Assembly: GCF_001995255.1 (NCBI RefSeq)
Contig: NZ_MUZR01000002.1
Span: 1-64,000, forward strand
From: Thioalkalivibrio halophilus
GTDB lineage: Bacteria; Pseudomonadota; Gammaproteobacteria; Ectothiorhodospirales; Ectothiorhodospiraceae
Length of the DNA: 64,000 nucleotides
Reading direction: 5' to 3'
A program made the position numbers and the translations under genes. How positions within the stretch are numbered: the first letter of the stretch is position 1; each line of letters begins with the position of its first letter. Positions 28,702 through 64,000 of this stretch are shown one piece after another. A model generated the notes under the pieces. That model saw only the letters and a list, made by a program, of their open reading frames with translations. It ran no database searches and had not been told where the DNA came from.

Positions 28702-28704
28702 GTC

Positions 28705-29781: not shown

Positions 29782-29801
29782 CAGACCCGCGGGGTACACT
29801 C

Positions 29802-30707: not shown

Positions 30708-31761
30708 CAACCTGGGACCGCCTGCGGGCAACACCGAGCTGCGGATACACGAGCTGGATGCGCAGAACCGGTCGCGCTGGGACGCCTTCGTCCAGGAGTG
30801 CCCGGACGCGACGTTCTTCCATCGTGCGGGCTGGGCCGATGTCATGCGCCGCGCCTTCGGTCACCGGACCTTTTTCCTGTATGTCGAGCAGGGCGGGACG
30901 ATCGTCGGCGTGCTCCCGCTGGCACGGGTGCGCTCCCGCCTGTTCGGCGACGCCCTGACGTCGATGGCTTTCGGTGTCTACGGCGGCATCGCCGCGCGCA
31001 CCCCGGACGCCTTTGCGGCGCTGGACCGGCACGCCTGCCGACTGGCGGATAGCCTGGGCGTCGACTACCTCGAGTACCGCCACCGCGAGCCCCACTACCC
31101 CGAGCGGCCCACCAAGGATCTCTACGTCACCTTCCGCAAGCCGCTGGAGGCCGACGTCGAGGCCAACATGAACGCGATTCCGCGCAAGCAACGGCGCATG
31201 GTGCGCAAAGGCATCAAGGCCGGTCTGGCGAGCGAATTCGACGCCGGCATCGAACGTTTCTTCCCCATTTATGCCGCCAGCGTGCATCGCATGGGCACAC
31301 CCGTCTTCAGCCGGCTCTATTTCCGGACCCTGCTGGACGTGTTCGGCGACGACTGCCGCCTACTGACCGCGACCCGCAATGGCAACCCGGTCGCCACGGT
31401 GATGACGTTCTATTTCCGCGATGAGGTACTGCCCTACTACGGCGCCGGGACGCCCGAGGCGCGCCAGGTGGCGGGCTACGATTTCCTCTACTGGGAACTG
31501 ATGCGCCGCGCCTGCGAGGACGGCTATCGCATCTACGACTTCGGCCGCAGCAAGCGCGATACCGGCTCCTTCAGCTTCAAGAAGAACTGGGGGTTCGAGC
31601 CACAGCCGCTGCACTACGAATACCACCTGGTGCGCGCCCGCGAGATGCCCGACGTCAATCCGCTCAACCCCAAATACCGCTACTTCATCAAGGCCTGGCA
31701 ACACCTGCCGCGGCCGGTCGCCAACTGGCTGGGCCCCCGGCTCTCCCGCTCCCTCGGCTAG
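30691..31761 (+). CDS. FemAB-like XrtA/PEP-CTERM system protein (TIGR03019-like)
   Basis: The 356-residue protein has the double-GNAT FemAB fold. FFHRAGWADVMRRAFG (about 42-57) and the IPRKQRRMVRKG block (about 164-175) are typical, with YDFGRSKRDTGSFSFKKNWG near residue 290. FemAB enzymes use aminoacyl-tRNA to build peptide bridges; in XrtA loci they may attach amino acids to the polysaccharide, but this is unproven. The start is GTG at 30691 with GGAG 7 bases upstream. It is part of the continuous core operon. Confidence 0.9.
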   Translation: MYQSPDNLGPPAGNTELRIHELDAQNRSRWDAFVQECPDATFFHRAGWADVMRRAFGHRTFFLYVEQGGTIVGVLPLARVRSRLFGDALTSMAFGVYGGIAARTPDAFAALDRHACRLADSLGVDYLEYRHREPHYPERPTKDLYVTFRKPLEADVEANMNAIPRKQRRMVRKGIKAGLASEFDAGIERFFPIYAASVHRMGTPVFSRLYFRTLLDVFGDDCRLLTATRNGNPVATVMTFYFRDEVLPYYGAGTPEARQVAGYDFLYWELMRRACEDGYRIYDFGRSKRDTGSFSFKKNWGFEPQPLHYEYHLVRAREMPDVNPLNPKYRYFIKAWQHLPRPVANWLGPRLSRSLG

Positions 31762-31775
31762 CACGGAGTGCTCCT

Positions 31776-46089: not shown

Positions 46090-47325
46090 TCAAACCAGCA
46101 ACTCAGCGGCCATCGGCTGACCGAGAAAGCCCACCGGACTCGCCGACAGGCCATACGCGCCGGACTGGAAGACGGCAATGAGATCGCCCGGTTCCGCTGC
46201 AGGCACATCAATCTGTTCGGCCAGAATATCCAGCGGAGTGCAGAGCGGGCCGACGATCGAAGCCTTCCCGGTTTCGGCCTCGGTCATGCGCGTGGCAACC
46301 GCGACCGGATAATTCTTCCGGATCACCTGCCCCAGGTTCCCCGACGCCGCCAGGTGGTGATGCATGCCGCCGTCCGTCACCAGGTAGACCCGGCCCCGGG
46401 AAACCTTGCGATCAATGACGCGCGCCACATAGACCCCCGCCTCGCCCACCAGATAGCGGCCCAGCTCCAGCACCACCCGGGCATCGCCCAGCCGTCGGGC
46501 ACAGGTCTCGACATGCCCGGCCAGGTGATCGGTCACCACGTTCAGGTCCAGCGGCCGGTCATTGGGGAAATAGGGGATACCCAGGCCACCGCCAACGTTC
46601 AGCAGCTTGACCGGGCCTGGCGCCTGCTCCGCCAGACGGTAGGCGAGTTCGAAGATGCCGTCCTGAGCCGCGGTCAGTGCCTCGGTGCTCAGGTTCTGCG
46701 AGCCGGCAAAGATCTGAAAGCCCTGGAACGACAACCCGTAATCGCCAATGCGCTGCAACAGCTCGGGGACCTGTTCGGCATCCACACCGAACGGACGGGA
46801 CCCCCCGCCCATGCGCATGCCCGAGGACTTCAATTCGAAATCGGGATTGACCCGCACGGCCACACGGGCCGGCTGGCCCGCCGCCTCGGCCAGGCGATGG
46901 ACGCGTTCCATCTCGCCGAAGGATTCCAGGTTGATCACGATGCCGGCCTGCAATGCCGCCGCAAGCTCCCCGTCGCGCTTGCCGGGCCCGGCGAAACTGA
47001 TATCGCCCGGCGAGGTACCGGTATTCAGGGCCAGCTCGAGTTCCGCGGCCGAGGCCACATCGAGGCCATCAACACGCTCCGCCATGTACTCCACGACGGC
47101 GGGCATCGGATTGGCCTTCACGGCGTAGTGCAGGTGCACGGCGCGGGGCAGGCAGCCACGCAGCTCCGCCAGGCGGGCGTCCAGCATCCCGCGGTCATAG
47201 GCGTAAAAGGGCGTGCCGCCGGCCTCCCGGGCCAGTTCGGTGACGGGCCTGCCACCCAGCGCCAGACAGCCGTCGACGAGCCGGAATTGCTTCATGCAGG
47301 GGAGTTCCGTGACGTGTGGCGTCAT
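46090..47325 (-). CDS. PLP-dependent decarboxylase, exosortase A system-associated (TIGR03099-like)
   Basis: This 411-residue fold III (alanine racemase/DAP decarboxylase-like) enzyme has the PLP-binding lysine in HYAVKANP (Lys70), GLDVASAAELELAL, LNVGGGLGIPYFP, ELGRYLVGEAGVYV and a GPLCTPLDIL motif in the second active site. It decarboxylates an amino-acid-like substrate. In XrtA loci it travels with the acyl-CoA ligase and carrier protein found here, suggesting a small amine or acyl building block. The ATG at 47325 overlaps the ligase stop (ATGA) with GAGG upstream; the ATG at 47295 is a shorter alternative. Confidence 0.9.
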   Translation of the reverse strand: MTPHVTELPCMKQFRLVDGCLALGGRPVTELAREAGGTPFYAYDRGMLDARLAELRGCLPRAVHLHYAVKANPMPAVVEYMAERVDGLDVASAAELELALNTGTSPGDISFAGPGKRDGELAAALQAGIVINLESFGEMERVHRLAEAAGQPARVAVRVNPDFELKSSGMRMGGGSRPFGVDAEQVPELLQRIGDYGLSFQGFQIFAGSQNLSTEALTAAQDGIFELAYRLAEQAPGPVKLLNVGGGLGIPYFPNDRPLDLNVVTDHLAGHVETCARRLGDARVVLELGRYLVGEAGVYVARVIDRKVSRGRVYLVTDGGMHHHLAASGNLGQVIRKNYPVAVATRMTEAETGKASIVGPLCTPLDILAEQIDVPAAEPGDLIAVFQSGAYGLSASPVGFLGQPMAAELLV

Positions 47326-48923
47326 GCTGGATCCTCGGTGAAGGCGTCCCGGTAGAAGGTGCGCAGCCCTGCACGGTCGATCTTGCCGTTGGAATTGCGG
47401 GGCAGGGCCTCGGCCCGGACGATGAATCGGGACGGGACCATGAAGGCCGGCAGGGCCGCACGACACGCGGCCGTCAGTGACTCAACAGGCGGCTCGCGGC
47501 CCGGTTCTCCGGCGACGACCACGACGATCTCCTCGCCCAGTCGCTCATGTGGCAGACCGAACGCCACCGCCTCGCGCACCCCCTCCATCCCGTCGAACAC
47601 CTCCTCGATCTCCCGGGGGCTGACGCGGTAACCGGAAGTCTTGATCATCTCGTCCCGGCGCCCGACGAAATACAAAAACCCGTCTTCGTCGCGTCGCACC
47701 GTGTCGCCCGACCACACGGCCCGTTCCGGAAGGCCCAGCTCCGGACGCTGCCCGGGCACCGGGCGAAAGCGCCGGGCCGTCGCTTCCGGCGCATTCCAGT
47801 ACCCCAGGCTCACCAGTGGCCCCCGATGAACCAGTTCACCGGGTTCACCGGGGGCGCACGGCTCACCATCCGCGCGTACCACCATCACCTCGGCATTCGG
47901 GATGGCCTTGCCCATGGAGGTCGGGCGCGCGTCGATTTCCTCCGGCGGCAGATAGGTCGAGCGGAATGCCTCTGTCAGCCCGTACATCAGATAGGGCGCT
48001 GCATTCGGCAACTGCTCGCGCAGGGCGGTCAGGGTAGTCAGGGGCATCGCGCCCCCCGAATTGGTGAAATAGCGGAGACTCCGGCGCGCGCCCTCGGACC
48101 ACTCCAGACCCGCGAGCTCAACCCACAGGGGAGGCACCGCAGCCAGCCCGGTAATCGAGTGCCTTTCGACCGCCCGCACCACGTCACGCGGCATCAGGTA
48201 GTTGAGCAGAACGGCTTCGGCCCCTACCCGGAACGCGGTGGTCAGCTGGCTGAGGCCATAATCGAAGCTGAGGGGCAGTACGCTGAGGATCCGGTCCGCG
48301 GCCGTGTTTTCCAGGTACTCGCTGACGCTCCTGGCACCCGCCACCATGTTCCGATGCGACAGTACGACCCCCTTGGGCCGCCCGGTGCTGCCCGAGGTAT
48401 ACAGGATCGCGGCCATGTCCGACTCGATCCGCCGGACCGGCGCCGGCGGAGCCTCCCTGTCCGTTGACGACGAATCCCAGGCGAACAGACGCATCCCCGG
48501 GGGAACGATGTCGTCCGTATCCGGCCCCGTGTCCGCCGTGTAGACCTGTTGCAGATCGGGACACCCGTTCAGGAACTCCGCCAGCGGTCCAAGCCTGCCG
48601 CGCGAGGTGACCAGGGCCATTGCACCGGCATCCTGCAGGATGTGCGCGACCTGGTGCGGCTTGAGAGTCGGATTGACCGGCACCGCCACGCCGCCGGCCG
48701 CCATGGCTGCAAACAACGCGACGACCGTCTCCGGCCTCTTGTCCAGGAACACGGCAACGCGATCATTCGGCTGTACACCGTTGCGCCTCAACGCGGCTGC
48801 CTGCCGCATCACGTCACCGGACAGTTCCCGATACGAGCGCTGCTGATCTCCGTGCGTCAACGCGGGGGCATCCGGACGCCGCCGCGCGGAGGCCAGGATC
48901 AGTTCGTGCAGCAGATGGGCCAT
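47322..48923 (-). CDS. Acyl-CoA ligase (AMP-forming), exosortase A system-associated (TIGR03098-like)
   Basis: The 533-residue ANL-superfamily enzyme has the P-loop YTSGSTGRPKG (175-185), an A5-like MYGLTEAFRST, SGDTVRRDEDGFLYFVGRRD, and the C-terminal Lys motif PRNSNGKIDR. It adenylates a carboxylic acid and probably loads it onto the carrier protein encoded divergently at 49614, or onto CoA. The ATG at 48923 overlaps an upstream open frame (TAATG), but that frame is not supported as a gene. It is translationally coupled to the decarboxylase. Confidence 0.92.
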   Translation of the reverse strand: MAHLLHELILASARRRPDAPALTHGDQQRSYRELSGDVMRQAAALRRNGVQPNDRVAVFLDKRPETVVALFAAMAAGGVAVPVNPTLKPHQVAHILQDAGAMALVTSRGRLGPLAEFLNGCPDLQQVYTADTGPDTDDIVPPGMRLFAWDSSSTDREAPPAPVRRIESDMAAILYTSGSTGRPKGVVLSHRNMVAGARSVSEYLENTAADRILSVLPLSFDYGLSQLTTAFRVGAEAVLLNYLMPRDVVRAVERHSITGLAAVPPLWVELAGLEWSEGARRSLRYFTNSGGAMPLTTLTALREQLPNAAPYLMYGLTEAFRSTYLPPEEIDARPTSMGKAIPNAEVMVVRADGEPCAPGEPGELVHRGPLVSLGYWNAPEATARRFRPVPGQRPELGLPERAVWSGDTVRRDEDGFLYFVGRRDEMIKTSGYRVSPREIEEVFDGMEGVREAVAFGLPHERLGEEIVVVVAGEPGREPPVESLTAACRAALPAFMVPSRFIVRAEALPRNSNGKIDRAGLRTFYRDAFTEDPA

Positions 48924-51834: not shown

Positions 51835-52935
51835 TCAAAACACAGGCCCCGGGCGATTCCACCGTCTCCCGAAACGGGAACGGCGAAGATGGTTCAGCAG
51901 GACGGCGAACACCGCCGCGGGAAGCCTGCGAAGCTGGTCCGGAAATTCGAGGTCATAGGTTTTGAGTCTCTCGCGCACCGGATCCGTCAGATAGCCATCC
52001 GAATGAATCTGCACGGACTCCAGGCCCCAGTTGGCGTTGCCCTCGACCAACACCGGCCCCTCGGGGGTTACCACAATGTCCCAGCCCACGGACGGGGTGC
52101 CGGAGAAATTGGCGGCCACCCTCCTGGACAACTCGACGCAATCCTCCCAGTACGGGACCCGGGTTCCCGTAAAATGGACTTTCGAATCGGGGTGGACCTG
52201 GTACCAACGGCTCCCGGAGGTGGGACAGGACACTCCCTGACCCATGCGTCCGGTATCCGGATCGACATGAACGGACAGACTTCCCTTGTACCAGTTGTCT
52301 GCCATCGATCCGGCCGTGCCCAGCCGCAGGATGGAAAAATCAACGGTGATCGTGCCCGAGGTGTCATGAAAGGTGACGATCCGAACGCAGTTAATGCAGC
52401 TTGAATTGATCTTCTGCAGGTCGGCGTGCTGCTGCAGCCGCTGTTGTACAATCCAGCCGTCGTAACGGGTTCCATAGTAACGCCTGGTCGTGTTTCCCAG
52501 GCGCTCGAGGAATGCCCCCAGGTTGTCCACGGTTCCGCAAAATCGATGGATCTGCTCACCCTGCTGCCCCCCCCTGGGCTTGAAGATCCAGTCGACCTCG
52601 CCCCCGGGAGGGGCGAGCCCCACGAAATCTCTTTCCGTGGTCAGCGCTTCCTCGCTGACGGTCCGGCCGAAGACCGGATGGTAGAGACCCAGAGTTTCGG
52701 GCGTGGGGATGCCTAGGCCCGCGAAAACGAAATGGCTCAGCCATTTGTCTTCCAGAATGTGCTTCTGGCCACCCTGATTGACATGCGTTCGATACAGGCG
52801 ATGAAGCTGGCGGTGGTTCATGAACCGCACACATGCCTCCGGAGTCCGGTCACCGAGCCGGTAGAGCTCATACTCCGAACTCTTGAAGCCACTGCCCAGG
52901 ACTCGCATCTTGTGCAGTCTGGCCCGTGGGTTCAT
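51835..52935 (-). CDS. ATP-grasp enzyme (sugar-transfer-associated type)
   Basis: The 366-residue protein resembles the 'sugar-transfer associated ATP-grasp' family. The core is DWIFKPRGGQQGEQI (about 115-129), then INSSCINCVRIVTF, and an acidic metal site near the end in GWDIVVTPEGPVLVEGNANW. ATP-grasp ligases activate carboxylates as acyl phosphates and join them to amines. The ATG at 52935 overlaps the asparagine-synthase-like gene stop (ATGA), so the two enzymes are probably co-translated and may act in sequence. The open frame upstream is a shadow. The substrate is unknown. Confidence 0.8.
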   Translation of the reverse strand: MNPRARLHKMRVLGSGFKSSEYELYRLGDRTPEACVRFMNHRQLHRLYRTHVNQGGQKHILEDKWLSHFVFAGLGIPTPETLGLYHPVFGRTVSEEALTTERDFVGLAPPGGEVDWIFKPRGGQQGEQIHRFCGTVDNLGAFLERLGNTTRRYYGTRYDGWIVQQRLQQHADLQKINSSCINCVRIVTFHDTSGTITVDFSILRLGTAGSMADNWYKGSLSVHVDPDTGRMGQGVSCPTSGSRWYQVHPDSKVHFTGTRVPYWEDCVELSRRVAANFSGTPSVGWDIVVTPEGPVLVEGNANWGLESVQIHSDGYLTDPVRERLKTYDLEFPDQLRRLPAAVFAVLLNHLRRSRFGRRWNRPGPVF

Positions 52936-54674
52936 GGGAGGACCCCCTGGTGGTATCCGGTCGAGGGGGTCGCGCTCGCTTCCGGCACTGCCGTTGCGGC
53001 CTGCCTCGACTGCCGGGTCGCGGACTCCAGACGCGAGGCCGTCAGCATGCCCCCCAGGCAGTCGATCCGCTGCGGGCCCATGTTCCGCGGTGTGCGCAGC
53101 ACATCTTCGGGGGAATCGGTCGCGAGGATCGCGCGCAGCCATTCGGAACCGGAGAGTGTTCCCCGCGCAGTGGCACGAAAAAGGGGGTCATGCCGCGCCA
53201 GCCGGGCGAAATTGCCTTCCGGCGGCTGGAAAAACTGCCGGCCCGGCCAGACCCGGTTCAGGAACGGGCGGAGCTGGCGCACCGTGGCCTTGCCGAGCGA
53301 ACGTGGACGCGGACTCAGCAGCGGCAGCCCGGTCTTGTCATATGGGATGCCCGCCAGTTCGGGGCTGAGCCGCTGGATGATCCGCCGGTAAAGCCACGAG
53401 CCCTTGCGCAGTTGCCAGGGCAGGGCCAGAGCAAAGTCCATCAGCGCGTGGTCGAGCGCCGGGGTGCGCACATCCAGATAGTTCTGATTCAGGCGGACGA
53501 TGTTGTAGACCAGGCGTCGGCTGCGGTTCTCCAGATAGTGTCGCTGACTGGCCTCCAGGCCGGTGTCACCGGCGGGGAAGTCCTCGCGTATGCATTCCTC
53601 GACCCGACGCACTTGCGGGCTGTCGGGGCCAAAACCCAGGGCCGCAGCGTTGTAGCGAAGGCGCGCCAGATGTCCCTGGATCTGCTGTTCCCGCGATTGC
53701 TCGCACAGAAACGTGGCCTTGAACAGCAGATCCTGCAGGAACCCGTCGACCGTGGCGCGTGACCCGGTGGCGGCAAGTCTTCGCGCCGTCCCGACCAGAC
53801 GCCAGTGGCCGATATTGAAGTCGCCGGGGCCCAGGTCGGGGTTGAAACCAGGCGCATGGCGCATGTCGTCGGCCGAATCGAAACGTTCGATCGGGCGGCG
53901 GAGATGACGCCCGATCCGGCGGGCATAGGGCCATTCCACATTGGCCAGGTCGTGGCAATGAAAGAGCCGTGCGCACAAGGCCAGGTCCGGATGTAACGCC
54001 AGATTGCAGCGCGAGTCCAGACCGGCGGTCACCGGCATGGCCACCGTCTCCGGATCGAGGTCCGCCGCGTGCCGGACATGGGCCTGCCGGAGCCGTTCGG
54101 TGGCGGCTTCCAGCCACGGCTCGACCGACCCCGGGTCGCCGACCTCCGGGACGGGCGGCAGCCAGTAGCGATCACATACCGGGTCGGCCCCGGTGCCCGG
54201 GATACGGCAGCGGCTGGCCGGGGGCAACAGGTGCACATCCCGCAGCAGGGTGCGGCTGCCCCATGGGTGATCCAGGAAGATCGTGGTCAGCACCGCCGCC
54301 GGGTCGGGTTCGACCGCTCCCGGCAGGAGCCGGGCGACGTCGGCAAGACGGGTGGCGAAATAGAAGGTCCTGCCGCGGACGGCCCAGTGGACCGGGATGG
54401 TCCCGAGGCGGTCCGTAATGATCTCCATGCCGGCGGGCGTCCAGCGCAGCTCCAGCCACGAGCCGTCGCGCCGCGCGGGATCGGATGGCTGGTCCTGGAT
54501 CAGGTGGCGTTCCCCGATCACCACGCCCGTCGGGTCCCTGCGAACGGTGCAGGAAGGGTGACCCGGCTCGTACTGCAGGTGAAAACCCGGCCCCGTTTCC
54601 CAACACCAGCCGGCGGGTACCGCCGGAGCCGTTTCAGCGGCTCCGGGTCCAAAAGTGCCGCGCAGTTTCAACAT
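52932..54674 (-). CDS. Asparagine-synthase-like protein lacking the glutaminase Cys
   Basis: The 580-residue protein has an asparagine-synthase fold: a degenerate GATase II-like N-terminal half (1-170) and a PP-loop domain after about 185. It starts MLKLRG, so the Cys2 needed to release ammonia from glutamine is absent. The ATP loop reads TAGLDSR (216-222) instead of SGGxDSS. It could use another amine donor (as beta-lactam synthetase does) or work without glutaminase activity. It overlaps the ATP-grasp gene by 4 bases and follows the flippase gene by 13 bases. A canonical version with Cys2 and SGGVDSS is encoded at 35772. Confidence 0.82.
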   Translation of the reverse strand: MLKLRGTFGPGAAETAPAVPAGWCWETGPGFHLQYEPGHPSCTVRRDPTGVVIGERHLIQDQPSDPARRDGSWLELRWTPAGMEIITDRLGTIPVHWAVRGRTFYFATRLADVARLLPGAVEPDPAAVLTTIFLDHPWGSRTLLRDVHLLPPASRCRIPGTGADPVCDRYWLPPVPEVGDPGSVEPWLEAATERLRQAHVRHAADLDPETVAMPVTAGLDSRCNLALHPDLALCARLFHCHDLANVEWPYARRIGRHLRRPIERFDSADDMRHAPGFNPDLGPGDFNIGHWRLVGTARRLAATGSRATVDGFLQDLLFKATFLCEQSREQQIQGHLARLRYNAAALGFGPDSPQVRRVEECIREDFPAGDTGLEASQRHYLENRSRRLVYNIVRLNQNYLDVRTPALDHALMDFALALPWQLRKGSWLYRRIIQRLSPELAGIPYDKTGLPLLSPRPRSLGKATVRQLRPFLNRVWPGRQFFQPPEGNFARLARHDPLFRATARGTLSGSEWLRAILATDSPEDVLRTPRNMGPQRIDCLGGMLTASRLESATRQSRQAATAVPEASATPSTGYHQGVLP

Positions 54675-54687: not shown

Positions 54688-56220
54688 TTACGACACCTCT
54701 CCGAAGTGGGATTGATTGCCGGACAGTCGACACGCCCAGCGTCGGTTCAGGACATTCCGGTCCACGGCCATCTGAAGGGCACGCATTTCGGGTCCTTCCG
54801 GCCGCCCGGATGCAAACCAGAGCCCTGCCAGCACAAGGGCATACGTGAGCCCCCCGAGAGGGATCAGCAACAGCAGATGCAGGGCGGCGATGGCGGAACT
54901 GGTGACGCCCGGGAGTGCGGCGACGGTGCCCAGCAAGGTCGCCAGCATCACCAGCGAAGCCAGCACCGGGCGCCAGATCACAGCGAAGAAATCCCTGCTC
55001 GGCATCCGGAGGAAATGCGAAACCAGCATCACGCCGAAAGGCATCAGGGCGCTGGAGGCGAAGACCTTCGACCACACGGCGATTTCCAGCCCGTGACCGG
55101 CCCACAACAGGTACGCCATCAGAGGCAGCGTCAACAGGACATCGGCCAGGATGAAAATGCCGACCCAGTACGGCTTGTTGAGGGCCATGAACAGTGAAAA
55201 ACGATTGCCATGCAGGATCCGCGTGGCACCCAGAATGGCCAGCACCTGGATCAGTGGGATGGTCACCAGCCAGTTCTCGCCCAGAAGAAGCCATACCATG
55301 GGTTCGGCCACGCCCACCATGCCGAGCGCTGCGGGGACGGTAACCAGGGTCACCAGGCCCTGGGCCAGCAGATAGCCCCGGCGCAGGCGCGGCAAGTCGT
55401 GCGCCACCTTTGCAAAGCCGGGGAACACGGCCCGCATGATCGGCGCATAAAGCTCCGAGGACGGGAGTTTTGCGATATCCGATGCGACCCGGTAGGCACC
55501 GAGACCATCCGCCCCCACGAGACGGCCGACAATCCAGTCCGGCCCCCTGCCCTGCGCGTACATGGCCACGTTGTTGAACGTGACCCAGGCGGAAAATCCG
55601 ATCAGGTCCCGCCAGCCGGACAAGTCCGAACGCGGCCGGAACGGGTGCATCGCGTAGCTCAGGCTCAACCCCACGAACGCCGACGTCAGGGAGCCGAGGA
55701 CCAGTGCCCAGTAGCTCTGAAGGTAGAACCCCATGGCAATGGTCACGGCCACCGCCGACGCCTTCTTGCCGAAGCCGAACAGGAATTCCTTGCGGAACGT
55801 GAGCTCCTTGCGGAAGGCGACGATGCCGATGTTCTCGAACCCGTGCATGAACGAGATGGCGGCAAAGGCGTAGACAATCATCTCCACCCGGGCATCATCA
55901 AAGAACACCGCCGCATGCGGCGCCGCCAGCACCAGCGCCAGCGCACCCATTGACTGGTACACCAGCTTGATGGTCCAGGCCGTGTCGTAATGCCGCCGTT
56001 CCGCCTTCTGGTCGCGGATCAGGGCCAGATCCAGCCCGAAGGCACCGACCATCTCGATCAGGGCGTACAGGGCGAAGGCCATCGCCACCAGGCCGAAGTC
56101 CTCCGGCACCAGCAGCCGCGCGAGGATCACCGTACTGATCAGGCCCATGAAGCGCTGGAAGGTGCGCAGGCCCATCATCCAGGCGGCACCACCCGCCACC
56201 TTGTCGCCGAGGTCCTTCAT
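54688..56220 (-). CDS. Polysaccharide flippase (Wzx/MOP superfamily)
   Basis: The 510-residue protein has about 12-14 membrane segments and the typical start GAAWMMGLRTFQRFMGLIST, with ILARLLVPEDFGLVAMA. It belongs to the lipopolysaccharide biosynthesis (MviN/Wzx-like) branch and would flip the undecaprenyl-linked repeat unit to the periplasm. No second flippase is seen in the window, so this is probably the exporter of the XrtA polysaccharide unit. It starts 37 bases after the QueC-like gene. The length is usual for the family. Confidence 0.92.
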   Translation of the reverse strand: MKDLGDKVAGGAAWMMGLRTFQRFMGLISTVILARLLVPEDFGLVAMAFALYALIEMVGAFGLDLALIRDQKAERRHYDTAWTIKLVYQSMGALALVLAAPHAAVFFDDARVEMIVYAFAAISFMHGFENIGIVAFRKELTFRKEFLFGFGKKASAVAVTIAMGFYLQSYWALVLGSLTSAFVGLSLSYAMHPFRPRSDLSGWRDLIGFSAWVTFNNVAMYAQGRGPDWIVGRLVGADGLGAYRVASDIAKLPSSELYAPIMRAVFPGFAKVAHDLPRLRRGYLLAQGLVTLVTVPAALGMVGVAEPMVWLLLGENWLVTIPLIQVLAILGATRILHGNRFSLFMALNKPYWVGIFILADVLLTLPLMAYLLWAGHGLEIAVWSKVFASSALMPFGVMLVSHFLRMPSRDFFAVIWRPVLASLVMLATLLGTVAALPGVTSSAIAALHLLLLIPLGGLTYALVLAGLWFASGRPEGPEMRALQMAVDRNVLNRRWACRLSGNQSHFGEVS

Positions 56221-56257: not shown

Positions 56258-57085
56258 TCAATAACCGCGCAGTTTCAGTCGGGCCCAGCGTTTTGCGCGA
56301 TACCCTCGCGGCAGAAACTCGAGCATGCGGGCAATCCTGTTGTTCAGCCGGGATCGCCACGGCAGGCGATACCCCACCCCCTTTGAGATTGTCATGCGGC
56401 ACGGCACGCAAAACCCGCATGGCTGCCCCGCACGCGTCGGCATGTGGCAGAACCAGGTCTGCTCCAGCAGATCCAGGAATCCGTGGTCTCGGGCGTGTTC
56501 GCGCATCTCGGCCTTGCCGATATGCAGTGTCGGAAAACTGAACAGATTGAACAGACTTTCCGGCGCCTCCTCGTCCAGGTACGGGCGTACAGGTTCCCGT
56601 TTGTATTCACGTATTCCGCTATTCAGTCGGGGATCAAGAAAATAGAAATCCTCATTATGCTGGACGCAGACTTCGATGCCCTCCAGTGCGTTCTGCCGCA
56701 CCAGCTCCGCCAGCCATATATATTGCGGGCCGATCCCCCGGGTTTCCTGCAGCTTCTCGAATTTCTTTTGCAACACCGGATCCGGCCGTGCGGCGGCGGC
56801 GTGAAGGACCTGTAATGCCAGAAGACGCCCGCCCGTGGCACGTTCGTTGATTGCAAGACGCAAGCGATCCATGACGGCGAGTTCCTGGCCGATCGACTGT
56901 CGGTTCTCGTCACGTACATACCAGGGCTCAACCGTTTCCCCGTAATGAAGAACCAGATCCAGCACCCGGAAAGTCGAGTCCCAGCCACCGGTCCAGAATA
57001 TCCTGCGCGGGGGCGGTGAACCGGAGGATGAACCGTCCGGCTGCGGGAACCCGGCCGATCGAGCTTTGGGAGTTGCGTTAGTCAA
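56258..57085 (-). CDS. QueC-like PP-loop protein, copy 1
   Basis: The 275-residue protein has an ATP PP-loop variant TGGWDST (32-38) and a C-terminal four-Cys cluster C213-x9-C223-x2-C226-x2-C229 (CGFCVPC). Both are landmarks of 7-cyano-7-deazaguanine synthase (QueC), which uses ATP to turn a carboxylate into an amide and then a nitrile. Other QueC features are not recognisable, so the substrate is probably different. I chose TTG at 57085 because AGGAG is 9 bases upstream; a GTG at 57145 is the only longer choice. It heads a minus-strand operon with the flippase, asparagine-synthase-like and ATP-grasp genes. A paralogue is at 58363. Confidence 0.72.
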   Translation of the reverse strand: MTNATPKARSAGFPQPDGSSSGSPPPRRIFWTGGWDSTFRVLDLVLHYGETVEPWYVRDENRQSIGQELAVMDRLRLAINERATGGRLLALQVLHAAAARPDPVLQKKFEKLQETRGIGPQYIWLAELVRQNALEGIEVCVQHNEDFYFLDPRLNSGIREYKREPVRPYLDEEAPESLFNLFSFPTLHIGKAEMREHARDHGFLDLLEQTWFCHMPTRAGQPCGFCVPCRMTISKGVGYRLPWRSRLNNRIARMLEFLPRGYRAKRWARLKLRGY

Positions 57086-57173
57086 TGCAACAATCTCCTG
57101 AAGTGAGCCACGCAGTTGAATATATTTTTCACCTTCGGAACACACACGGGGATCCCACCGGGTCTGTTATCGT

Positions 57174-57219
57174 TATAATGGAACCCCAGCCATGTACTGG
57201 CGACCGAAACTCGGGGGAG
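57174..57219 (+). promoter_or_regulatory. Promoter -10 and ribosome binding site of the CapA-like gene
   Basis: A perfect TATAAT (57174-57179) and GGGGGAG (57213-57219) precede the TTG start at 57226. The -35 hexamer is weak (GATCCC). This arrangement decides the start: an in-frame ATG at 57178 would overlap the -10 box. Confidence 0.5.
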
Positions 57220-57225
57220 TCCAAA

Positions 57226-58338
57226 TTGAAACTGATATTCACCGGTGATACCCGACTGATTCGAACTCCCGGCACGGAACAGGCAGGCAAACCGCAATCG
57301 CCCTTCGCACGCGTGCAGCACCTTTTGCAGGGCGCGGATGTCCTCTCCGGGAACCTTGAATGCTTCTTCACCGAGGACCTCGAGAACCAGAAGGGACTGT
57401 GGAAACACCCGAAAGTCCTGCGTGCCGACCCCGCGATGGCGACGACCCTGGTGGAGGCCGGATTCAGCATCCTGAATCTCGCCAACAACCATATGATGGA
57501 CGGCGGGCCTCAGGGACTGGAGACAACCACGGACACCCTGAACCGGATCGGCCTTCCGTGGTCGGGGGCGGGCCGCGGGCACGGGCAGGCGATCGCGCCG
57601 GCATGGCTGGAACGTGGCGGGCGGACATTGGCCTTCATTGGAGCGGGCGACAACTCTCACGATTACGCCGGGCCGGAGACTCCCGGCGTGGCCCCGATGG
57701 AACCCTTCGGGGACCTTCTCCAGCGCACCCGGGAGGCTGCAGAACAGGCCGACATCGTCGTGGTGCAGCTGCATGCGGACCTCGAGTTCAGCTACGCGCC
57801 GGCGCCGTACCGGGTGAAGCTCAGCCGCGCGCTGATCGACCACGGGGCCACGCTGGTGATCCAGCACCATCCACATGTGGTCCAGGGCGTGGAGCGTTAC
57901 CGGAACGGCCTCATCGCGTACTCGCTGGGCAACTTTGTGTTCAACGTCCGTGGCAACGCCTATCAGGAAGGTTTTCCCGAGGCCCGTTACGGGTGGATCC
58001 TTTCGGTGGATCTGGATCCCGCCACCCATGGCGTGACCGGCTGGGACATGGAGCCGGTGTGGATTGCGGACGATCATCGGCCGGAACCCATCGAGGGAGC
58101 GCCGCGCGAGACCGCCCTGCGGGATTTTGCCGGCCGCTGTGCGGTACTGCGGTCCTCCCGGCAGTTGCGGCGCGCGTGGCTCGGGAGAAGCTGGCGGGAA
58201 GCTCGCTACCATGCGCTGATGGCCTACTACAAAAGCCGCCGCGGACGCCCGGGTGCCGCAATGCTGGACCTCCTGGACCTGCCGATGCGGCCACGCAACC
58301 GCTTCTGGCTGCGAGCACTTCCGCTTCTCGGACGTTGA
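57226..58338 (+). CDS. CapA-family (PGA_cap) metallophosphatase-fold protein
   Basis: The 370-residue protein starts LKLIFTGDTRLIR (read with TTG as Met) and has SGNLECFF, LNLANNHMMD, the CapA-type HADLEFSY (HWGxE in many relatives), QHHPHVVQG and YSLGNFVFN. These are the calcineurin-like metal-binding motifs of the CapA/PgsA family, linked to poly-gamma-glutamate capsules and to other polymers. There are no signal peptide or membrane segments, so it may act in the cytoplasm. No PgsB or PgsC is in the window, so poly-gamma-glutamate is not expected. It is the only plus-strand gene between two minus-strand operons and separates the two QueC-like copies. Confidence 0.85.
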   Translation: MKLIFTGDTRLIRTPGTEQAGKPQSPFARVQHLLQGADVLSGNLECFFTEDLENQKGLWKHPKVLRADPAMATTLVEAGFSILNLANNHMMDGGPQGLETTTDTLNRIGLPWSGAGRGHGQAIAPAWLERGGRTLAFIGAGDNSHDYAGPETPGVAPMEPFGDLLQRTREAAEQADIVVVQLHADLEFSYAPAPYRVKLSRALIDHGATLVIQHHPHVVQGVERYRNGLIAYSLGNFVFNVRGNAYQEGFPEARYGWILSVDLDPATHGVTGWDMEPVWIADDHRPEPIEGAPRETALRDFAGRCAVLRSSRQLRRAWLGRSWREARYHALMAYYKSRRGRPGAAMLDLLDLPMRPRNRFWLRALPLLGR

Positions 58339-58339
58339 T

Positions 58340-58370
58340 GGCAGTGCGGGGCTATCCATGCCCTACTGCC
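58340..58370. terminator. Inverted repeat between convergent genes, possible bidirectional terminator
   Basis: GGCAGT (58340-58345) pairs with ACTGCC (58365-58370), and an inner GGGC (58349-58352) pairs with GCCC (58360-58363). It lies across the ends of the CapA-like and second QueC-like genes. No T-run follows on either strand, so termination strength is doubtful. Confidence 0.35.
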
Positions 58371-59151
58371 CCCTGACCTTGCGTGTGGCGCGGGTCTCCT
58401 GCCATTGACGGCAGCGCCACTGGAGCCCGACGGGCAGGGTGCGTACCGCCCGCTCGATCGCCCAGTAGCGCGTTTTTCCGATCCATCCCAGTCTCGCGCC
58501 CTCCTCCTTGCGCTCAAGCATCAGGACGCATGGGCGGCATGTGCCGCAGGGATGACGTCCCCGAACGGGGCTGTGACAGAAACAGGTTTTCGCCAGCACC
58601 TCGTCCCAGCCCCGTTCCGTCGCCTCCTGCCGCAACCGGGCGTCGCTACGCTGGATAAGCGGCAAGACGAACCCGCCCAGCAGGACGGCGACAGCCCCCG
58701 CGTCGGGCGCCACCCGAAAAGCCGGAACCGTGTCTTGCCCGACGGGCACCAGGAACGGCCCGACGATGGGGTACAGGCTTCCCTTCTCCACGCTCAGTTC
58801 AATCCCGTCCAGACCTTCAGCCTTCACCAGCATCGCGAGCCAGCGATACTGATTGCCGAGGCGGTTCTGTCGGGTGATGGTCAGAAAGGCTTCATCGATG
58901 TCCGGATCGGGAGGGATCTCTTCACGCCGATACAGGACCGGTTCCCGGATCCGGCCGGGCTCCGCGTAGCCGCCAGCCTCCAGGTGCTGCGTGAGCTGCC
59001 GGATGGTGGCGAGCTCCATCGCGGACGAGGCGCGACGGGGATCGATCACGTAACGGGGCTGTATGGGCCCCACTGTGGTGGTCAGCAACTCCATCACCCG
59101 GAAGGTCGAGTCCCAGCCCCCGGTCCAGAAGATCTCGGTGGCCCCGCTCAT
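58363..59151 (-). CDS. QueC-like PP-loop protein, copy 2
   Basis: This 262-residue paralogue of the gene at 56258 starts MSGATEIFWTGGWDSTFRVM. The PP-loop TGGWDST is at 10-16 and the Cys cluster C192-x9-C202-x2-C205-x2-C208 has the same spacing as in copy 1. The compact N-terminus shows that the PP-loop is normally close to the start, which supports the shorter start chosen for copy 1. The ATG at 59151 overlaps the GT2 stop (ATGA) with GGAG upstream. The long open frame upstream is a shadow of that GT2 gene. It is the last gene of the operon beginning with the sulfotransferase. Confidence 0.75.
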   Translation of the reverse strand: MSGATEIFWTGGWDSTFRVMELLTTTVGPIQPRYVIDPRRASSAMELATIRQLTQHLEAGGYAEPGRIREPVLYRREEIPPDPDIDEAFLTITRQNRLGNQYRWLAMLVKAEGLDGIELSVEKGSLYPIVGPFLVPVGQDTVPAFRVAPDAGAVAVLLGGFVLPLIQRSDARLRQEATERGWDEVLAKTCFCHSPVRGRHPCGTCRPCVLMLERKEEGARLGWIGKTRYWAIERAVRTLPVGLQWRCRQWQETRATRKVRGQ

Positions 59152-60197
59152 CTCGATGCTCCGGTTGTCGAATCGCTCCGGCCTGCACCGGGAAGCAGGA
59201 ATCGCCCGCTCCGGACCCCACTGGCGAGGATTGCGTAAAGGGCCGTCCTCACGTGTCCGGGACGGGCCCGCCAGGCGCCGATGAAGGAAGGTGCGGCCGC
59301 AGCCTTCTGCCCGTTCCAGAACAGGTTGTAGCCCATAGCGAAATGGAGCCGGAATCGACGGTGCCGCAGTTCTTCGGGGGTGATGGCGCTGCCATCCGGC
59401 CCGACCCGACCCCAGCGGGCGATGGCGGACTCCAGCACCATCAGCGCGTAATTGACGGGCGCCCAGCGCCGGGTCGCGCTTTCGGCATGCCGCCGGTACA
59501 GGGCATAGGGCCGCGCCAGGGTCAGGATGGGCGTCAGGCGGGAAGCGCGAATCCAGTAATCGTAATCCTGTGCCAGGCGCAGATCCTCGCGGAATTCGCC
59601 CACCATATCGGCCAGTTCGCGGCGCATCAGCACCGTTCCGGTCCAGACCATGGTGTCCAGCAACAGGCGGTGATAGATCCAGCCCGAGCGTTCGGGATCG
59701 AGGGCGTCGGAGTCTTGCGCCTGCGTTGCGGCCGCATGTCGGTTCGGGCTGGACCACTGCCCCGAATCATCCGGATACCAGCGGATGAAATTGCTCGCGA
59801 CCATGGCGGATTCCGGGTGGTTTCTCAGGCAACGGATCTGTGCCTGCAACTTGCCCGGTAGCCAGACGTCATCGCCATCGAGATACGCAATCAGTTCGCC
59901 TTTCGCCTCGCGCAGGCCTACATTGCGGCTGGCACCGGCTCCACTGGATGCCCGGGCGGTTTCCAGCAGCCGGACGGGCCCGTCGAAACGCGCGGCAACC
60001 TGCCGGGTGTGGTCGCTCGAACCGTCATCGATCACCAGGATTTCGATGGCTTCGTGCCCCTGATCCATCACGCTCTGCAGCGCCTCTTCCAGATAGACGG
60101 CGCAGTTGCACGCCGGGACGATGACGGATACACACGGGTGATCCGTCAGCGGCGGCCGGTCCGATGTGAGCAGGGTGTGAGCCACGGGCGAATTCAT
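59148..60197 (-). CDS. GT2-family glycosyltransferase, copy B
   Basis: This 349-residue GT-A enzyme has VSVIVPACNCAVYLEEAL (about 23-40), LVIDDGSSDHT, YLDGDDVWLPGK and AQDYDYWIRASR. It shares these and most of its acceptor-domain layout (GWIYHRLLL, VLMRREL, ARWGRVGPDGS) with copy A at 45035, so the two are recent paralogues. It probably adds a related sugar. It lies 3 bases downstream of the O-antigen-ligase-like gene and overlaps QueC-like copy 2 by 4 bases. Confidence 0.88.
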   Translation of the reverse strand: MNSPVAHTLLTSDRPPLTDHPCVSVIVPACNCAVYLEEALQSVMDQGHEAIEILVIDDGSSDHTRQVAARFDGPVRLLETARASSGAGASRNVGLREAKGELIAYLDGDDVWLPGKLQAQIRCLRNHPESAMVASNFIRWYPDDSGQWSSPNRHAAATQAQDSDALDPERSGWIYHRLLLDTMVWTGTVLMRRELADMVGEFREDLRLAQDYDYWIRASRLTPILTLARPYALYRRHAESATRRWAPVNYALMVLESAIARWGRVGPDGSAITPEELRHRRFRLHFAMGYNLFWNGQKAAAAPSFIGAWRARPGHVRTALYAILASGVRSGRFLLPGAGRSDSTTGASR

Positions 60198-60200: not shown

Positions 60201-61625
60201 TTACCGGAGGCGGCCGGCAGCCATGATGGTTCCGGGTACCTCGGGCGGCCTGCTGCCCTCGGGCGGACTTGCGGGGGACGTCCGGGGCTGCGCTGTCGAC
60301 GCGACCGCCGGGGCGGCAGCGACAACCGTCTCCTTCAGCTCGCGTCGCAGGATGATGGCCAGCGCGACAAAGGCCAGATACAGATCGAAATAGGCCAGAC
60401 TCAGGAAGGCGCCACCGACCATGTATCCGACCAGACCCAGCGCGAGCGCCCAGGCCCACTGGCTGATCCAGACGGTTTCCGCATGCTGGCGTCCCTGGCG
60501 GTAAAGCCGCAGCAGGGTCAGCAGCGAAAAGCCCAGCAGCGCAAGAAACAGCCCCAGCCCGAGGAAGCCGTGCTCGCCCAGCATCTGGAAGTAGATGCTG
60601 TGCGCCGCGATCGGGCCGGTTACCACGGCATCGTCCCGGTCCAGATAGCTCAGCCAGATCGGTGCGGGGAGCCGCTGAATGCTCATGCCCGAGCCGGTAA
60701 AGGGGTGATCGAGGGCAAGATTCCAGGAGACGTTCCAGGCATCCAGGCGTCCGCCGGCAGAGGCGTCTTCCTGGTAGTGGATCAGAGTGTCGATCTGGTG
60801 CTCGACCTTCTCCGGAACGGTGAATCCCACAACGGCGACGACCAGCAGCCCGGCCCCGACCATGGCCGCCTTGTGGCGCATACTCAGAAAGATCAGGGGG
60901 AAGATGACCGCGGTCGCGACCCAGGCACCTCGCGAGTGCGTCCCCACTATTGAGATCAGGTGCAGCCAGAAGCCGGCATACAACGCGAGCCCGATGAGTC
61001 GATGCCAGCGCTCGAAGAACGGAGAGTGAAACGGGAGCCGGAAATGACCCTGGTGGACCTGTCGTGCCAGCACCAGCACCAGAGGAAGGGTCATGACCAG
61101 CGCCAGCCCGATGTCGGTGTTCCCGCCGATGAAGGTACCCGGCGGGCCCAGCACCATCCCGCCAAAGCCAGTCGCGAGGGTATAGGGGCCGCCCTTGAAC
61201 CCGAAAAACGCGACCGAGAGGGTGATGACGGCGAGCAGCACCATGACGCGTGCCTGGCCGGATACCAGCATGGTCGCGACCACCGTCATGAGCATGATCT
61301 TCATCACGGTATCCCAGCGCTCGAACGCGACTTCCGGCTGCCAGGCGAAAAACAGCGAAATGACCGTGATATGCGCGAACAAGGCAATCAGCACCACGGT
61401 TTCACGCGTCAGGGGTGGCGGACGCCGTTCCCGGGCGAACAACAGGGCAACGAGCGTCGTCAGTCCGACCGCCATGGCGACGGGCATGCCTGGCAGGAAT
61501 CCCCAGGCCAGCCGATGAGGGTTCATCAGCCCCACCCAGTACCAGGCCGGGATCCCGATCCACGGGCGCCACAAAATGAACGGGATCAGGCCAAAAATGA
61601 GGATGAAAAAGACGATATCGCGCAT
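60201..61625 (-). CDS. O-antigen-ligase-like protein, exosortase A system-associated (TIGR03097-like)
   Basis: The 474-residue protein has about 11-12 membrane segments and begins MRDIVFFILIFGLIPFI. The large periplasmic loop contains GTHSRGAWVA and, further on, the GSGMSIQRL region of Wzy/WaaL-type enzymes. TIGR03097 proteins are proposed O-glycosylation or polymerising ligases of XrtA loci; which reaction is performed is unknown. It could polymerise the repeat unit, as no other Wzy is visible. The Ala/Pro-rich tail (about 440-474) is cytoplasmic or disordered. Confidence 0.9.
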   Translation of the reverse strand: MRDIVFFILIFGLIPFILWRPWIGIPAWYWVGLMNPHRLAWGFLPGMPVAMAVGLTTLVALLFARERRPPPLTRETVVLIALFAHITVISLFFAWQPEVAFERWDTVMKIMLMTVVATMLVSGQARVMVLLAVITLSVAFFGFKGGPYTLATGFGGMVLGPPGTFIGGNTDIGLALVMTLPLVLVLARQVHQGHFRLPFHSPFFERWHRLIGLALYAGFWLHLISIVGTHSRGAWVATAVIFPLIFLSMRHKAAMVGAGLLVVAVVGFTVPEKVEHQIDTLIHYQEDASAGGRLDAWNVSWNLALDHPFTGSGMSIQRLPAPIWLSYLDRDDAVVTGPIAAHSIYFQMLGEHGFLGLGLFLALLGFSLLTLLRLYRQGRQHAETVWISQWAWALALGLVGYMVGGAFLSLAYFDLYLAFVALAIILRRELKETVVAAAPAVASTAQPRTSPASPPEGSRPPEVPGTIMAAGRLR

Positions 61626-61658: not shown

Positions 61659-62711
61659 TCAGGTGGTCATCACGGGATGGCGGGTGTTGCGAAGCAACTG
61701 AGCCAGAAACTTGGCCGGATGCCGTGACCAGGGCATGAAACGTGGTAACTGGAAGCGGTCCTGCCCGCGTCCGCCGGCCCCCATGGAGGTCGATACGGCG
61801 GCGGAGAACCCGGCCTTGCGGACCAGCTGCACATCGCGGGGCCCGTAGTCCTGCCCCGGCTTGCCGTTGGGATAGGCGAACAGGTCCACCGGGCCGCCGG
61901 TGATCAGCTGCAAACGCTCCCGGCCTTCCCGAATTTCGTGCGCGGCCGTGGCTTCGTCTTCCTGGGCCAGGATCGGATGTGTAAGGGTGTGGCCGCCGAT
62001 CCCCATCCCCGCCCGGTGCAGTTCGCGGACCTGGGCATCGGTCATCATCAGATCGTCCGGCAAGTCGGCGCCGATCCGTTTGGCCATGGCCTGCACCACG
62101 GCCTGGTGTTCCTGACACGGCTGCCATTTGATCTCGCGGATGATCGAACGGAACGCCTCACGGCGACTGTTCGCATCCGATATCGAGTGCTGCCCCAGTC
62201 CAAGGTCGCGCAAATCCAGGCGGCCCGCGGGCAGCCGCCGGATCGTCTCGAGCAGGGTGTCGTTGAACATGCGCCCGCCGTTAAGGTAGCCCGCGGCAAT
62301 GAAGAACGTGGCGGTTACCCCGTGCCTTTGCAGTATGGGCAGTGCATTACGGCGGTTATCCGCATACCCGTCGTCGAAGGTGATCGCGGTCGCCCGCGGG
62401 GGCAGCATCCCGGCATCCATGCGCTGCAGCGCCTCGGCCAGAGGCAGCACGTTGGTGTACCGGGCCAGCAGGCCCACCTGGCGGTCGAATTCGACACAAT
62501 CGGGGTTGTCCGGCTTGAGGGCATCCGGTGTGTCCAGCACCTGGTGATAGAGCAGGATGGACAGCCGCTGGCCGGGCTGGACCCCGGCCCACACAAGCCG
62601 GATGGCCGTAAGGACACCGCTCACCCCGAAACCCTTGCTTTGTTTCAAGCCGGACGGGGAGCCACGCTGCACTAACGCGGCCCGACCGGAAAACCGCTTC
62701 ACGCCTGCCAC
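61659..62711 (-). CDS. Polysaccharide deacetylase (NodB family)
   Basis: The 350-residue protein (from a GTG at 62711) has LSILLYHQVLD, the catalytic/metal motif ITFDDGYADN (about 109-118), TATFFIAAGYLNGG, GGHTLTHPIL and LFAYPNGKPG. It would remove acetyl groups from the polymer; no signal peptide is obvious. The start is uncertain: GTG at 62711 (GGGGAG upstream), GTG at 62702 (GTGA overlap with the sulfotransferase stop) and GTG at 62624 (AAGG upstream) are all possible. It differs from the XrtA-type deacetylase at 29802. Confidence 0.85.
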   Translation of the reverse strand: MAGVKRFSGRAALVQRGSPSGLKQSKGFGVSGVLTAIRLVWAGVQPGQRLSILLYHQVLDTPDALKPDNPDCVEFDRQVGLLARYTNVLPLAEALQRMDAGMLPPRATAITFDDGYADNRRNALPILQRHGVTATFFIAAGYLNGGRMFNDTLLETIRRLPAGRLDLRDLGLGQHSISDANSRREAFRSIIREIKWQPCQEHQAVVQAMAKRIGADLPDDLMMTDAQVRELHRAGMGIGGHTLTHPILAQEDEATAAHEIREGRERLQLITGGPVDLFAYPNGKPGQDYGPRDVQLVRKAGFSAAVSTSMGAGGRGQDRFQLPRFMPWSRHPAKFLAQLLRNTRHPVMTT

Positions 62712-63670
62712 AGCTTCTCCCCTATCATCGACCGTTCCACCACCTCATGAATCCGGTCGATCTGCCCGGTGGTCAGTTCTTTACGCCACTTGCCAATCTC
62801 TGTCCGGGGCGCACGCTGTACGCCGAAGTAACCCGATTGGCTGGCGCCGGTGCGCAACGACTCAATGAACCGGTCCGTCTGCTCGCTCCAGTCCAGTCCG
62901 ACGTGGGCAAAAACCTTCCTGGTCTCCTCCTCGGTCGACCGGGACAGCGCATCGTGCGTCACACACAAATAAGCGTCGTGCCCCTCGAGCGATCGATAAA
63001 CGGCTTCGTTGACGGCCATCCATTCAAAGGCCATCTGCTTTTCAATCGGCCAGGCCTTGACTTCCTCGCGCTTCCATTTCCAGCCATCCGCATAACCCGA
63101 ATCAAAAAGGGCGTCGATATAGACTTCCGTACCCATCAGCCCCAGTTCGACCCCGCGCATTCTGGATGCGACCACCCCGGCCGGGTGCCGGATCAAGTGG
63201 ACGAGCCGAATACCGGGTAATGCATCCACGAACAATGGCGCCCGCGCGACGGAATTGACACTTTTGATTACGGTGACCACATCGCCTCGCGAGGCATTGC
63301 CGATCATGTCCCATACGACATCCCGTTTTCGCGCACCCCCCAGTTTCGCGAGCGTGCGTGCTGCGGCTACGTTCAGGCGGTAAGCCACCTCTCGCGGCCC
63401 GGAGCGATACGACTTGCGGAATCGGGGTTCCTTGCCAGTCACCTTTGGCGCCCGCACCTGAGCAAGGTCACGGAGATACTCTCCGGCCTGGCGAGAAAAT
63501 TTTTCCCGCGCCCCGGGAGGTGGAAGGAACGGCAGGGAGGTATCGACCCGTGCCCAGTCCGGTTCATGGCGATAGAGGACCCGCGTATGGCTGTCCAGAA
63601 GCTTGGCCAGGAAGGTCGTTCCGGAACGACCGCTGCCTACGATCAGGACTGGATCAGTCTGTTGGTCCAT
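62699..63670 (-). CDS. Sulfotransferase family protein
   Basis: The 323-residue protein has the 5'-phosphosulfate-binding loop VGSGRSGTTF (11-20) near its start and a 3'-phosphate-binding motif RHPAGVVASRM (about 160). It would transfer sulfate from PAPS, probably to the polysaccharide. The ATG at 63670 has GGGGA 7 bases upstream; the open frame beyond it lacks support. It is first in the operon sulfotransferase, deacetylase, O-antigen-ligase-like, GT2, QueC-like. PAPS synthesis genes are not in the window. Confidence 0.88.
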   Translation of the reverse strand: MDQQTDPVLIVGSGRSGTTFLAKLLDSHTRVLYRHEPDWARVDTSLPFLPPPGAREKFSRQAGEYLRDLAQVRAPKVTGKEPRFRKSYRSGPREVAYRLNVAAARTLAKLGGARKRDVVWDMIGNASRGDVVTVIKSVNSVARAPLFVDALPGIRLVHLIRHPAGVVASRMRGVELGLMGTEVYIDALFDSGYADGWKWKREEVKAWPIEKQMAFEWMAVNEAVYRSLEGHDAYLCVTHDALSRSTEEETRKVFAHVGLDWSEQTDRFIESLRTGASQSGYFGVQRAPRTEIGKWRKELTTGQIDRIHEVVERSMIGEKLWQA

Positions 63671-64000
63671 ATCGGATCCCCGGAGATTGCAGATGGCTCG
63701 ACACGAACGCCTTGGTGGCTCTACCGGCAAGCGATGCAACACTGGCCGCGTGAAGAAGCGCCACAGCCGTCAGGGATCAGACTGAACCACCGTATTGGCG
63801 GCGTATGTGCGTTACGACACATAGGGAAACCGGAGTCCGGATGTCCCAATGTCCGAAGCCTTTACGTGCCCCCCGAACCCGAACCAGAACGCAAACCATT
63901 TATTCCTCAAAAACCGCTAGATACATATATGGCCTGCGCTTTGCTAGGCATCAGGGCAGAGTCCGGGAGACCTCGGGCTCGCACACGTTCTACCTACACG
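63671..64000. other. 330-base region at the window edge
   Basis: No gene is supported. An AT-rich patch at 63895-63945, containing ATACATATATGG, may hold the promoter for the minus-strand sulfotransferase operon, but I see no convincing -35/-10 pair. Confidence 0.35.

Follow-up and report, generated by a model that had tools for sequence, protein, structure and literature searches.

Positions 1 to 64,000 of contig NZ_MUZR01000002.1 from Thioalkalivibrio halophilus (assembly GCF_001995255.1), the whole stretch that was analysed and is called the window here, carry two genes whose products, proteins A and B, resemble the 7-cyano-7-deazaguanine synthase QueC (cluster 1 of PF06508), which helps to make a tRNA base. 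An earlier reading, made from the letters alone, had picked out the pair by a TGGWDST loop and a C-x9-C-x2-C-x2-C cluster, and both motifs are present in the two open reading frames (ORFs) where it had placed them. This sequence-only reading went on to propose a QueC-like fold adapted to modify a sugar carboxylate in a polysaccharide locus. What it had seen is real, and most of its interpretation is supported, with the sugar carboxylate as a putative substrate. Profile, fold, and motif together identify A and B as two paralogues of an apparently undescribed QueC-like family. Their features, in coordinates of the window, are as follows.

56258..57145, minus strand: protein A, a QueC-like paralogue with PP-loop and zinc site, 295 residues from GTG (ORF, AlphaFold2, fold match)
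56972..56992, minus strand: ATP loop TGGWDST of protein A, residues 52-58, near-invariant in the family
56399..56449, minus strand: C-x9-C-x2-C-x2-C of protein A, the predicted zinc site, Cys 233/243/246/249, all four invariant in the family
58363..59151, minus strand: protein B, the second QueC-like paralogue, 262 residues (ORF, AlphaFold2, fold matches)
59104..59124, minus strand: ATP loop TGGWDST of protein B, residues 10-16 (sequence)
58528..58578, minus strand: C-x9-C-x2-C-x2-C of protein B, the predicted zinc site, Cys 192/202/205/208 (sequence)

In pairwise comparison A and B are 34% identical, and because of this they can be taken as real paralogues rather than as bearers of a chance motif. 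B starts with an ATG at 59151, in a 4-base overlap with the stop of the upstream glycosyltransferase gene. The GTG start of A is provisional; it overlaps the start of a divergent CapA ORF, and the conserved part of the protein begins at about 57004. Since a flippase gene lies 37 bases past A and the glycosyltransferase gene overlaps B, A opens one gene run and B closes another. Both genes show coding constraint in the way that substitutions fall within codons. Compared with its orthologues in the Thioalkalivibrio strains ALJ7 and ALJT, A differs at 0.22/0.18/0.57 and 0.20/0.20/0.57 of the first, second, and third codon positions, so that in both strains the third position has 2.5 to 3 times as many differences as positions 1 and 2. 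For B and its ALJ7 orthologue, the figures are 0.33/0.31/0.60.

Structural models, with a Rossmann-like PP-loop fold and the GGxDS loop, place A and B in the PP-loop ATP pyrophosphatase superfamily. Taken singly, neither sequence reaches the cut-off of 22 bits for PF06508 (A, 16 bits; B, 12.2 bits), whereas some relatives exceed it (22.7 bits for the member at locus L061, 31 bits for a phage protein at L147). When the family is represented by a profile of 97 members, it matches 28 canonical QueC proteins over nearly the full length (186-214 columns; hhalign 94.8% local, E 5.5e-8, and 96.9% global). The AlphaFold2 models have predicted local distance difference test (pLDDT) values of 86 for A and 94 for B. 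In the Protein Data Bank (PDB), the top fold match of A is Cap9 with CdnD (9nto_B, probability 1.00), followed by QatC, MnmA, and YcfA. The leading matches of B are TilS, QatC, GMP synthetase, YcfA, NcsA, LarE, and NAD synthetase, with the nitrile synthetase ArtA (9lei) at rank 24. Foldseek E-values are modest, about 1e-3 to 1e-2 (1.9e-3, 2.8e-3), and the claim is therefore limited to a PP-loop fold that is QueC-like, and no finer. Searching PDB sequences with A alone gave noise, and the family profile gave only a marginal match to QueC. Matches of B to DNA polymerase subunits were set aside as noise confined to the cysteine stretch. The long N termini of the members at L061 and L092, considered as a possible fused domain, look like over-extended ORFs instead. 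The QueC-like PP-loop fold with a four-cysteine site, as the sequence-only reading had it, is thus supported by profile alignment and predicted structures alike.

How close to QueC are A and B? They share with it the PP-loop fold, a GGxDS loop at the N terminus, a C-x8/9-C-x2-C-x2-C cluster near the C terminus, and a conserved Pro and Lys ahead of that cluster. In the loop itself, T replaces the first S of the canonical SGGxDS and the remainder is kept (TGGWDS). The cysteine spacing is x9 in A and B and x8 or x9 in 91 of the 94 members measured. Canonical QueC, however, is defined by the motifs YxQxHxxE, VPxRN, and YPDC and by an essential Tyr after the first zinc Cys; Y35, R99, and Y131 are all essential in QueC (PMC13329287). 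Each of the three motifs is found in none of the 97 family members, compared with 26, 28, and 28 of the 28 canonical proteins, and the Tyr has become His in 78 of the 97. In place of these motifs, the family carries Y-x2-D-x2-R-x-S-x3-E, G-x-Q-Y, and WFCH-x-P. Its full near-invariant set comprises a W before the loop, Y32, D35, R38, S40, E44, G95-x-Q97-Y98, WFCH-x-P, and PCG-x-C-x-PC, of which the W before the ATP loop and G-x-Q-Y are further points of difference from QueC. Besides falling under the Pfam cut-off and lacking the QueC motifs, A and B have no queuosine genes beside them: neither queD nor queE was found among the ten genes scanned around the pair, and the queE of the genome adjoins a separate, canonical queC away from A and B. 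Clear orthology to a tRNA-modification enzyme, which had been named as a finding that would speak against the idea, is thus not seen. The loss of the QueC motifs suggests that the family has a different substrate than QueC. Overall, the family is a new and divergent QueC-like branch, neither a new fold nor QueC itself.

QueC-like folds are known from work on tRNA and DNA bases, from anti-phage protein tagging, and from a few cofactors. Cap9 of type IV CBASS (cyclic-oligonucleotide-based antiphage signaling system) and QatC of the Qat system are, like A and B, QueC-like folds outside tRNA modification, and they are top fold matches of A. Cap9, however, retains the QueC motifs (PMC13329287), which the A/B family does not. 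The neighbor gene scan found no CD-NTase (cGAS/DncV-like nucleotidyltransferase) and no qatA, qatB, or qatD near A and B, and a link to anti-phage systems was rejected on negligible PADLOC scores (QatC, 9.9 bits). WbpG, the N-acetyl sugar amidotransferase of TIGR03573, is likewise a PP-loop enzyme of polysaccharide synthesis. Kinship with it was also rejected, as A and B have no TIGR03573 match and the profile comparison (hhalign 2.8%) finds no similarity past the ATP loop. The ligases of acidic wall polymers, of the TupA type and ATPgrasp_ST, recur as neighbors; they have a different fold and are partners rather than relatives. A 2026 study of PF06508 covers QatC, Cap9, LarE, WbpG, GMP synthetase, a PfkB-linked group, and three archaeal clusters, with no mention of polysaccharides or of the A/B group (PMC13329287), which is probably missing from it because most members score under the Pfam cut-off. 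The literature search, which left out most subscription papers, found no description of a QueC tied to a polysaccharide, a glycosyltransferase, or an exosortase. The expectation that a sugar-modifying enzyme of this kind would be new therefore stands in part: the family is apparently undescribed, but a PP-loop enzyme acting on sugars is already known in the WbpG type (PMC13329287), not a close one at 2.8%.

The surroundings of A and B include the following genes.

24614..33014, plus strand: core genes of XrtA/PEP-CTERM exopolysaccharide synthesis (TIGR03007, 03016, 03015, 03006, 03019, 03087, over cut-off)
46090..47466, minus strand: pyridoxal phosphate-dependent decarboxylase (diaminopimelate/ornithine type)
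47322..48923, minus strand: exosortase-A-associated AMP-forming acyl ligase (TIGR03098, over cut-off)
51835..52935, minus strand: sugar-transfer-associated ATP-grasp protein (ATPgrasp_ST, Pfam E 3.8e-42)
52932..54674, minus strand: asparagine-synthase (AsnB)-like protein, no Cys after the first Met (profile match; sequence)
54688..56220, minus strand: Wzx-type flippase, 37 bases downstream of A
57085..58338, plus strand: CapA/PGA_cap-type protein, between A and B (Pfam E 3.7e-58)
59148..60197, minus strand: family 2 glycosyltransferase, its stop overlapping the start of B
60201..61625, minus strand: exosortase-A-associated O-antigen-ligase-like protein (TIGR03097, 393 bits, cut-off 188)
61659..62711, minus strand: polysaccharide deacetylase-family protein
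62699..63742, minus strand: sulfotransferase

By these matches, the window is an exosortase-A (XrtA)/PEP-CTERM exopolysaccharide locus. The core genes are of the chain length, outer membrane protein, ATPase, deacetylase, FemAB, and glycosyltransferase types, and the window also encodes an XrtA-type glycosyltransferase, a PrsK kinase, and a PEP-CTERM response regulator, each over its curated cut-off. The neighbors named in the sequence-only reading are there as it described them: a CapA-like gene flanked by A and B; a flippase, an AsnB-like protein, and an ATP-grasp protein after A; and a glycosyltransferase, an O-antigen-ligase-like protein, and a sulfotransferase before B. Its placement of the pair in a polysaccharide locus is borne out by the exosortase-A/PEP-CTERM models. 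The CapA-type gene is the sole PGA_cap gene in the 2.87-Mb genome. Its product falls in the Pfam family that includes capsule CapA and has a weak likeness to the peptide epimerase MslH, at E 2.7e-25 and under the cut-off. Enzyme families that activate carboxylates with ATP are present near A and B in the AsnB-like protein and ATPgrasp_ST, along with the TIGR03098 ligase 8 kb on. The probable start of the ATPgrasp_ST gene overlaps the stop of the AsnB-like gene. The AsnB-like protein itself has an altered ATP loop, TAGLDS, and a weak likeness to lasso/macrolactam cyclases; it could make a non-ammonia amide.

Where else is the family found? When 85,000 species genomes were scanned with a single peptide pattern, 220 relatives were confirmed, so the family has at least 220 members, and 80 of these were kept for work on their loci. 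They come from Pseudomonadota, Bacillota, Bacteroidota, Balneolota, Nitrospirota, Nitrospinota, Planctomycetota, Synergistota, Chloroflexota, and other phyla, and several old clades separate in a quick tree, which is also the source of the label-change counts below. Within Thioalkalivibrio, 10 of 29 related species genomes have a family gene, besides the window's own. About 10 of the 80 loci hold 2 to 4 copies within 20 kb, like the A/B locus. A Nitrospinaceae locus (L060:3004-6530) has four QueC-like copies in tandem, and more tandem sets are present in L071, L083, and L097. With A as the query, the plasmid and GenBank phage collections gave no match; in IMG/VR, five contigs carry family members.

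The company these relatives keep is recurrent in parts of the family. By counts with hidden Markov models (HMMs), about 29 of the 80 loci have at least two polysaccharide-type genes. Of 81 loci, 20 have an ATP-grasp gene no more than 10 kb away and 12 have it adjacent (<300 bases), across six phyla. On the tree this label changes about 12 times, at least four of them on well-supported branches, so the ATP-grasp association recurs in separate lineages. A CapA-like gene is adjacent in 10 loci belonging to two separate clades. In the Thioalkalivibrio/Halorhodospira clade it comes with a flippase, and the A-CapA-flippase grouping is conserved; in the Marinobacter/Halomonas-type clade it comes with a PaaK/CapK-like ligase, as the neighbor cluster is read. 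A flippase is near the family gene in nine loci, and Mur-ligase proteins occur in five, several with a peptidyl-tRNA-hydrolase-like domain. Clustering of all neighbor ORFs found no single partner gene for the whole family, and CapA and ATP-grasp recur only in subsets. The Mur ligases are at L052:11959-13887, L068:11969-13912, L077:10809-12785, L096:6127-8004, and L080:6426-8297; at L052, and at others by the Pfam count, the ligase carries a peptidyl-tRNA-hydrolase-like domain fused to its C terminus, an architecture that is unusual in exopolysaccharide loci.

UDP-glucose dehydrogenase makes a uronic acid. In a large phage (L147, IMGVR_UViG_3300009314_000004), the gene for this enzyme (7513-8844) is directly followed by one for a 601-residue fusion of an N-terminal ATP-grasp-like part and a QueC-like domain (8855-10660), the 31-bit PF06508 match mentioned above. 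The cassette also contains AsnB, a glycosyltransferase-like protein, two methyltransferases, and a radical S-adenosylmethionine protein, and it lies just before a terminase-like gene. The fusion protein is also present in two other contigs, and it is the strongest single clue for the function proposed below. Its ATP-grasp half showed no similarity to the ATP-grasp clusters that adjoin family genes. Other family copies lie in phage or prophage loci at L041:9935-10732, L146:9995-10735, and L145:9977-10696, two of which precede holin/endolysin-type genes.

What might A and B do in the exopolysaccharide locus? By analogy with QueC and Cap9, we put at about even the prospect that they form amides on an exopolysaccharide component by ATP activation of a carboxylate. 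ATP would be bound in the TGGWDS loop of each protein, and the carboxylate would be adenylated and then attacked by an amine (ammonia or an amino compound) to give the amide, as QueC does in its first half-reaction and Cap9 in its ligation. The four cysteines would hold a structural or catalytic zinc, as in QueC, Cap9, and QatC. The most likely substrate would be a carboxylate borne by a building block of the exosortase-A exopolysaccharide or by an amino acid destined for attachment to it. The resulting amide would decorate the polymer, with the ATP-grasp, AsnB-like, and CapA-like neighbors contributing steps of their own, and the presence of two different paralogues suggests two different positions or acceptors. 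That the carboxylate is that of a sugar is what we infer; nothing favors a nitrile over an amide. A wider and more tentative proposal, possible rather than probable, is that the branch at large works with a partner of the ATP-grasp or CapA type and activates carboxylates of uronic acids or attached amino acids in surface polysaccharides, giving amide or peptide decorations, and that phages share this chemistry, in one case through the fusion protein. The structure of the peptide epimerase MslH is known (PMC10406935), and TupA-type ATP-grasp proteins are tied to teichuronopeptide, a polyglutamate-polyglucuronate wall polymer of alkaliphiles (PMC8153356). The CapA/MslH likeness and the TupA-type link agree, without proof, with amide-linked decoration of acidic polymers.

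A number of observations weigh against these proposals. About 50 of the 80 loci have no polysaccharide genes nearby by HMM count, and at least half of the relatives stand alone, among them a clade in Halomonadaceae, Pseudomonadaceae, and Nitrospira whose neighbors are unrelated. The link to polysaccharides holds for about a third of the family loci, while about half to two thirds lie outside recognizable polysaccharide loci, and the family is broader than the sequence-only reading had supposed. A solitary copy could work on a polymer whose genes lie elsewhere, on a more general target, or on proteins. The gene company of the family does contrast with 20 random 20-kb stretches of related genomes, where ATP-grasp, CapA, and flippase genes were found in none and glycosyltransferases in one, but this control is small and limited to Pseudomonadota, and it is lenient because its HMMs were trained on the family's own loci. 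(L033 and L034 were excluded from it; one overlaps the window, and the other had been picked for its QueC paralogue.) No UDP-glucose dehydrogenase was found in the window, and the ATP-grasp half of the phage fusion has a weak match to RimK (17.9 bits, cut-off 21). Each of the three phage or prophage copies directly follows a tail or baseplate gene, a position that is compatible with protein modification as well. Biochemical data turned up for no member of the family.

Modification of proteins is indeed the main rival, though an unlikely one: the family would join a carboxylate to the N terminus of a partner such as the CapA-like protein or the tail protein of a phage. Fold comparison ranks Cap9 and QatC among the nearest matches, and Cap9 attaches, and QatC possibly attaches, 7-carboxy-7-deazaguanine to an N-terminal glycine (PMC12424860, PMC13329287). 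The phage copies beside tail genes and the recurrence of CapA-like neighbors point the same way, but the deazaguanine motifs that Cap9 has in common with QueC (PMC13329287) are all missing from the family, no partner gene is common to the family, and most members are without a fixed neighbor. Could the enzymes act instead on an amide or acetamido group, giving an amidine in the manner of WbpG, or transfer sulfur like LarE or MnmA? This seems quite unlikely. WbpG-type PP-loop enzymes do work in O-antigen synthesis (PMC13329287), and the fold matches include MnmA, NcsA, and LarE; the comparison with TIGR03573, however, gives only 2.8%, and neither HisH/HisF-type ammonia donors nor sulfur-relay genes turned up in the ten genes scanned around the two.

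It is very unlikely that the enzymes proceed to a nitrile and so make cyano-sugar or cyano-amino-acid decorations. QueC itself makes first the amide and then the nitrile at one site (PMC13329287), and ArtA appears among the fold matches of B, yet it ranks no better there than GMP or NAD synthetases, Cap9 stops at the amide with the same fold, and the essential Tyr of QueC is the residue that has become His in most members. Least credible of all, and close to dismissal, is the idea that A and B are queuosine or 7-deazaguanine enzymes that lie here by chance, with no polysaccharide link. Their weak PF06508 matches and the many solitary relatives would allow it, but the deazaguanine motifs are absent from the family, the genome has its own queE-queC pair elsewhere, and the grouping of A with CapA and a flippase is conserved in Thioalkalivibrio and Halorhodospira.

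If amide formation on surface polymers by A, B, and their relatives is correct, cell-surface glycans would be another arena for QueC-type carboxylate chemistry, and the family would be a source of enzymes to amidate sugar acids. A shared amide-forming toolkit of QueC-like, ATP-grasp, Mur ligase, and CapA-like proteins would then underlie acidic surface polymers. With the family signature, members are easy to find and test. One last observation concerns the same genome, which has a further QueC paralogue (L002:1492-2067; contig C27:13917-14483) with SGGVES for SGGxDS and PLPQRN for VPxRN.

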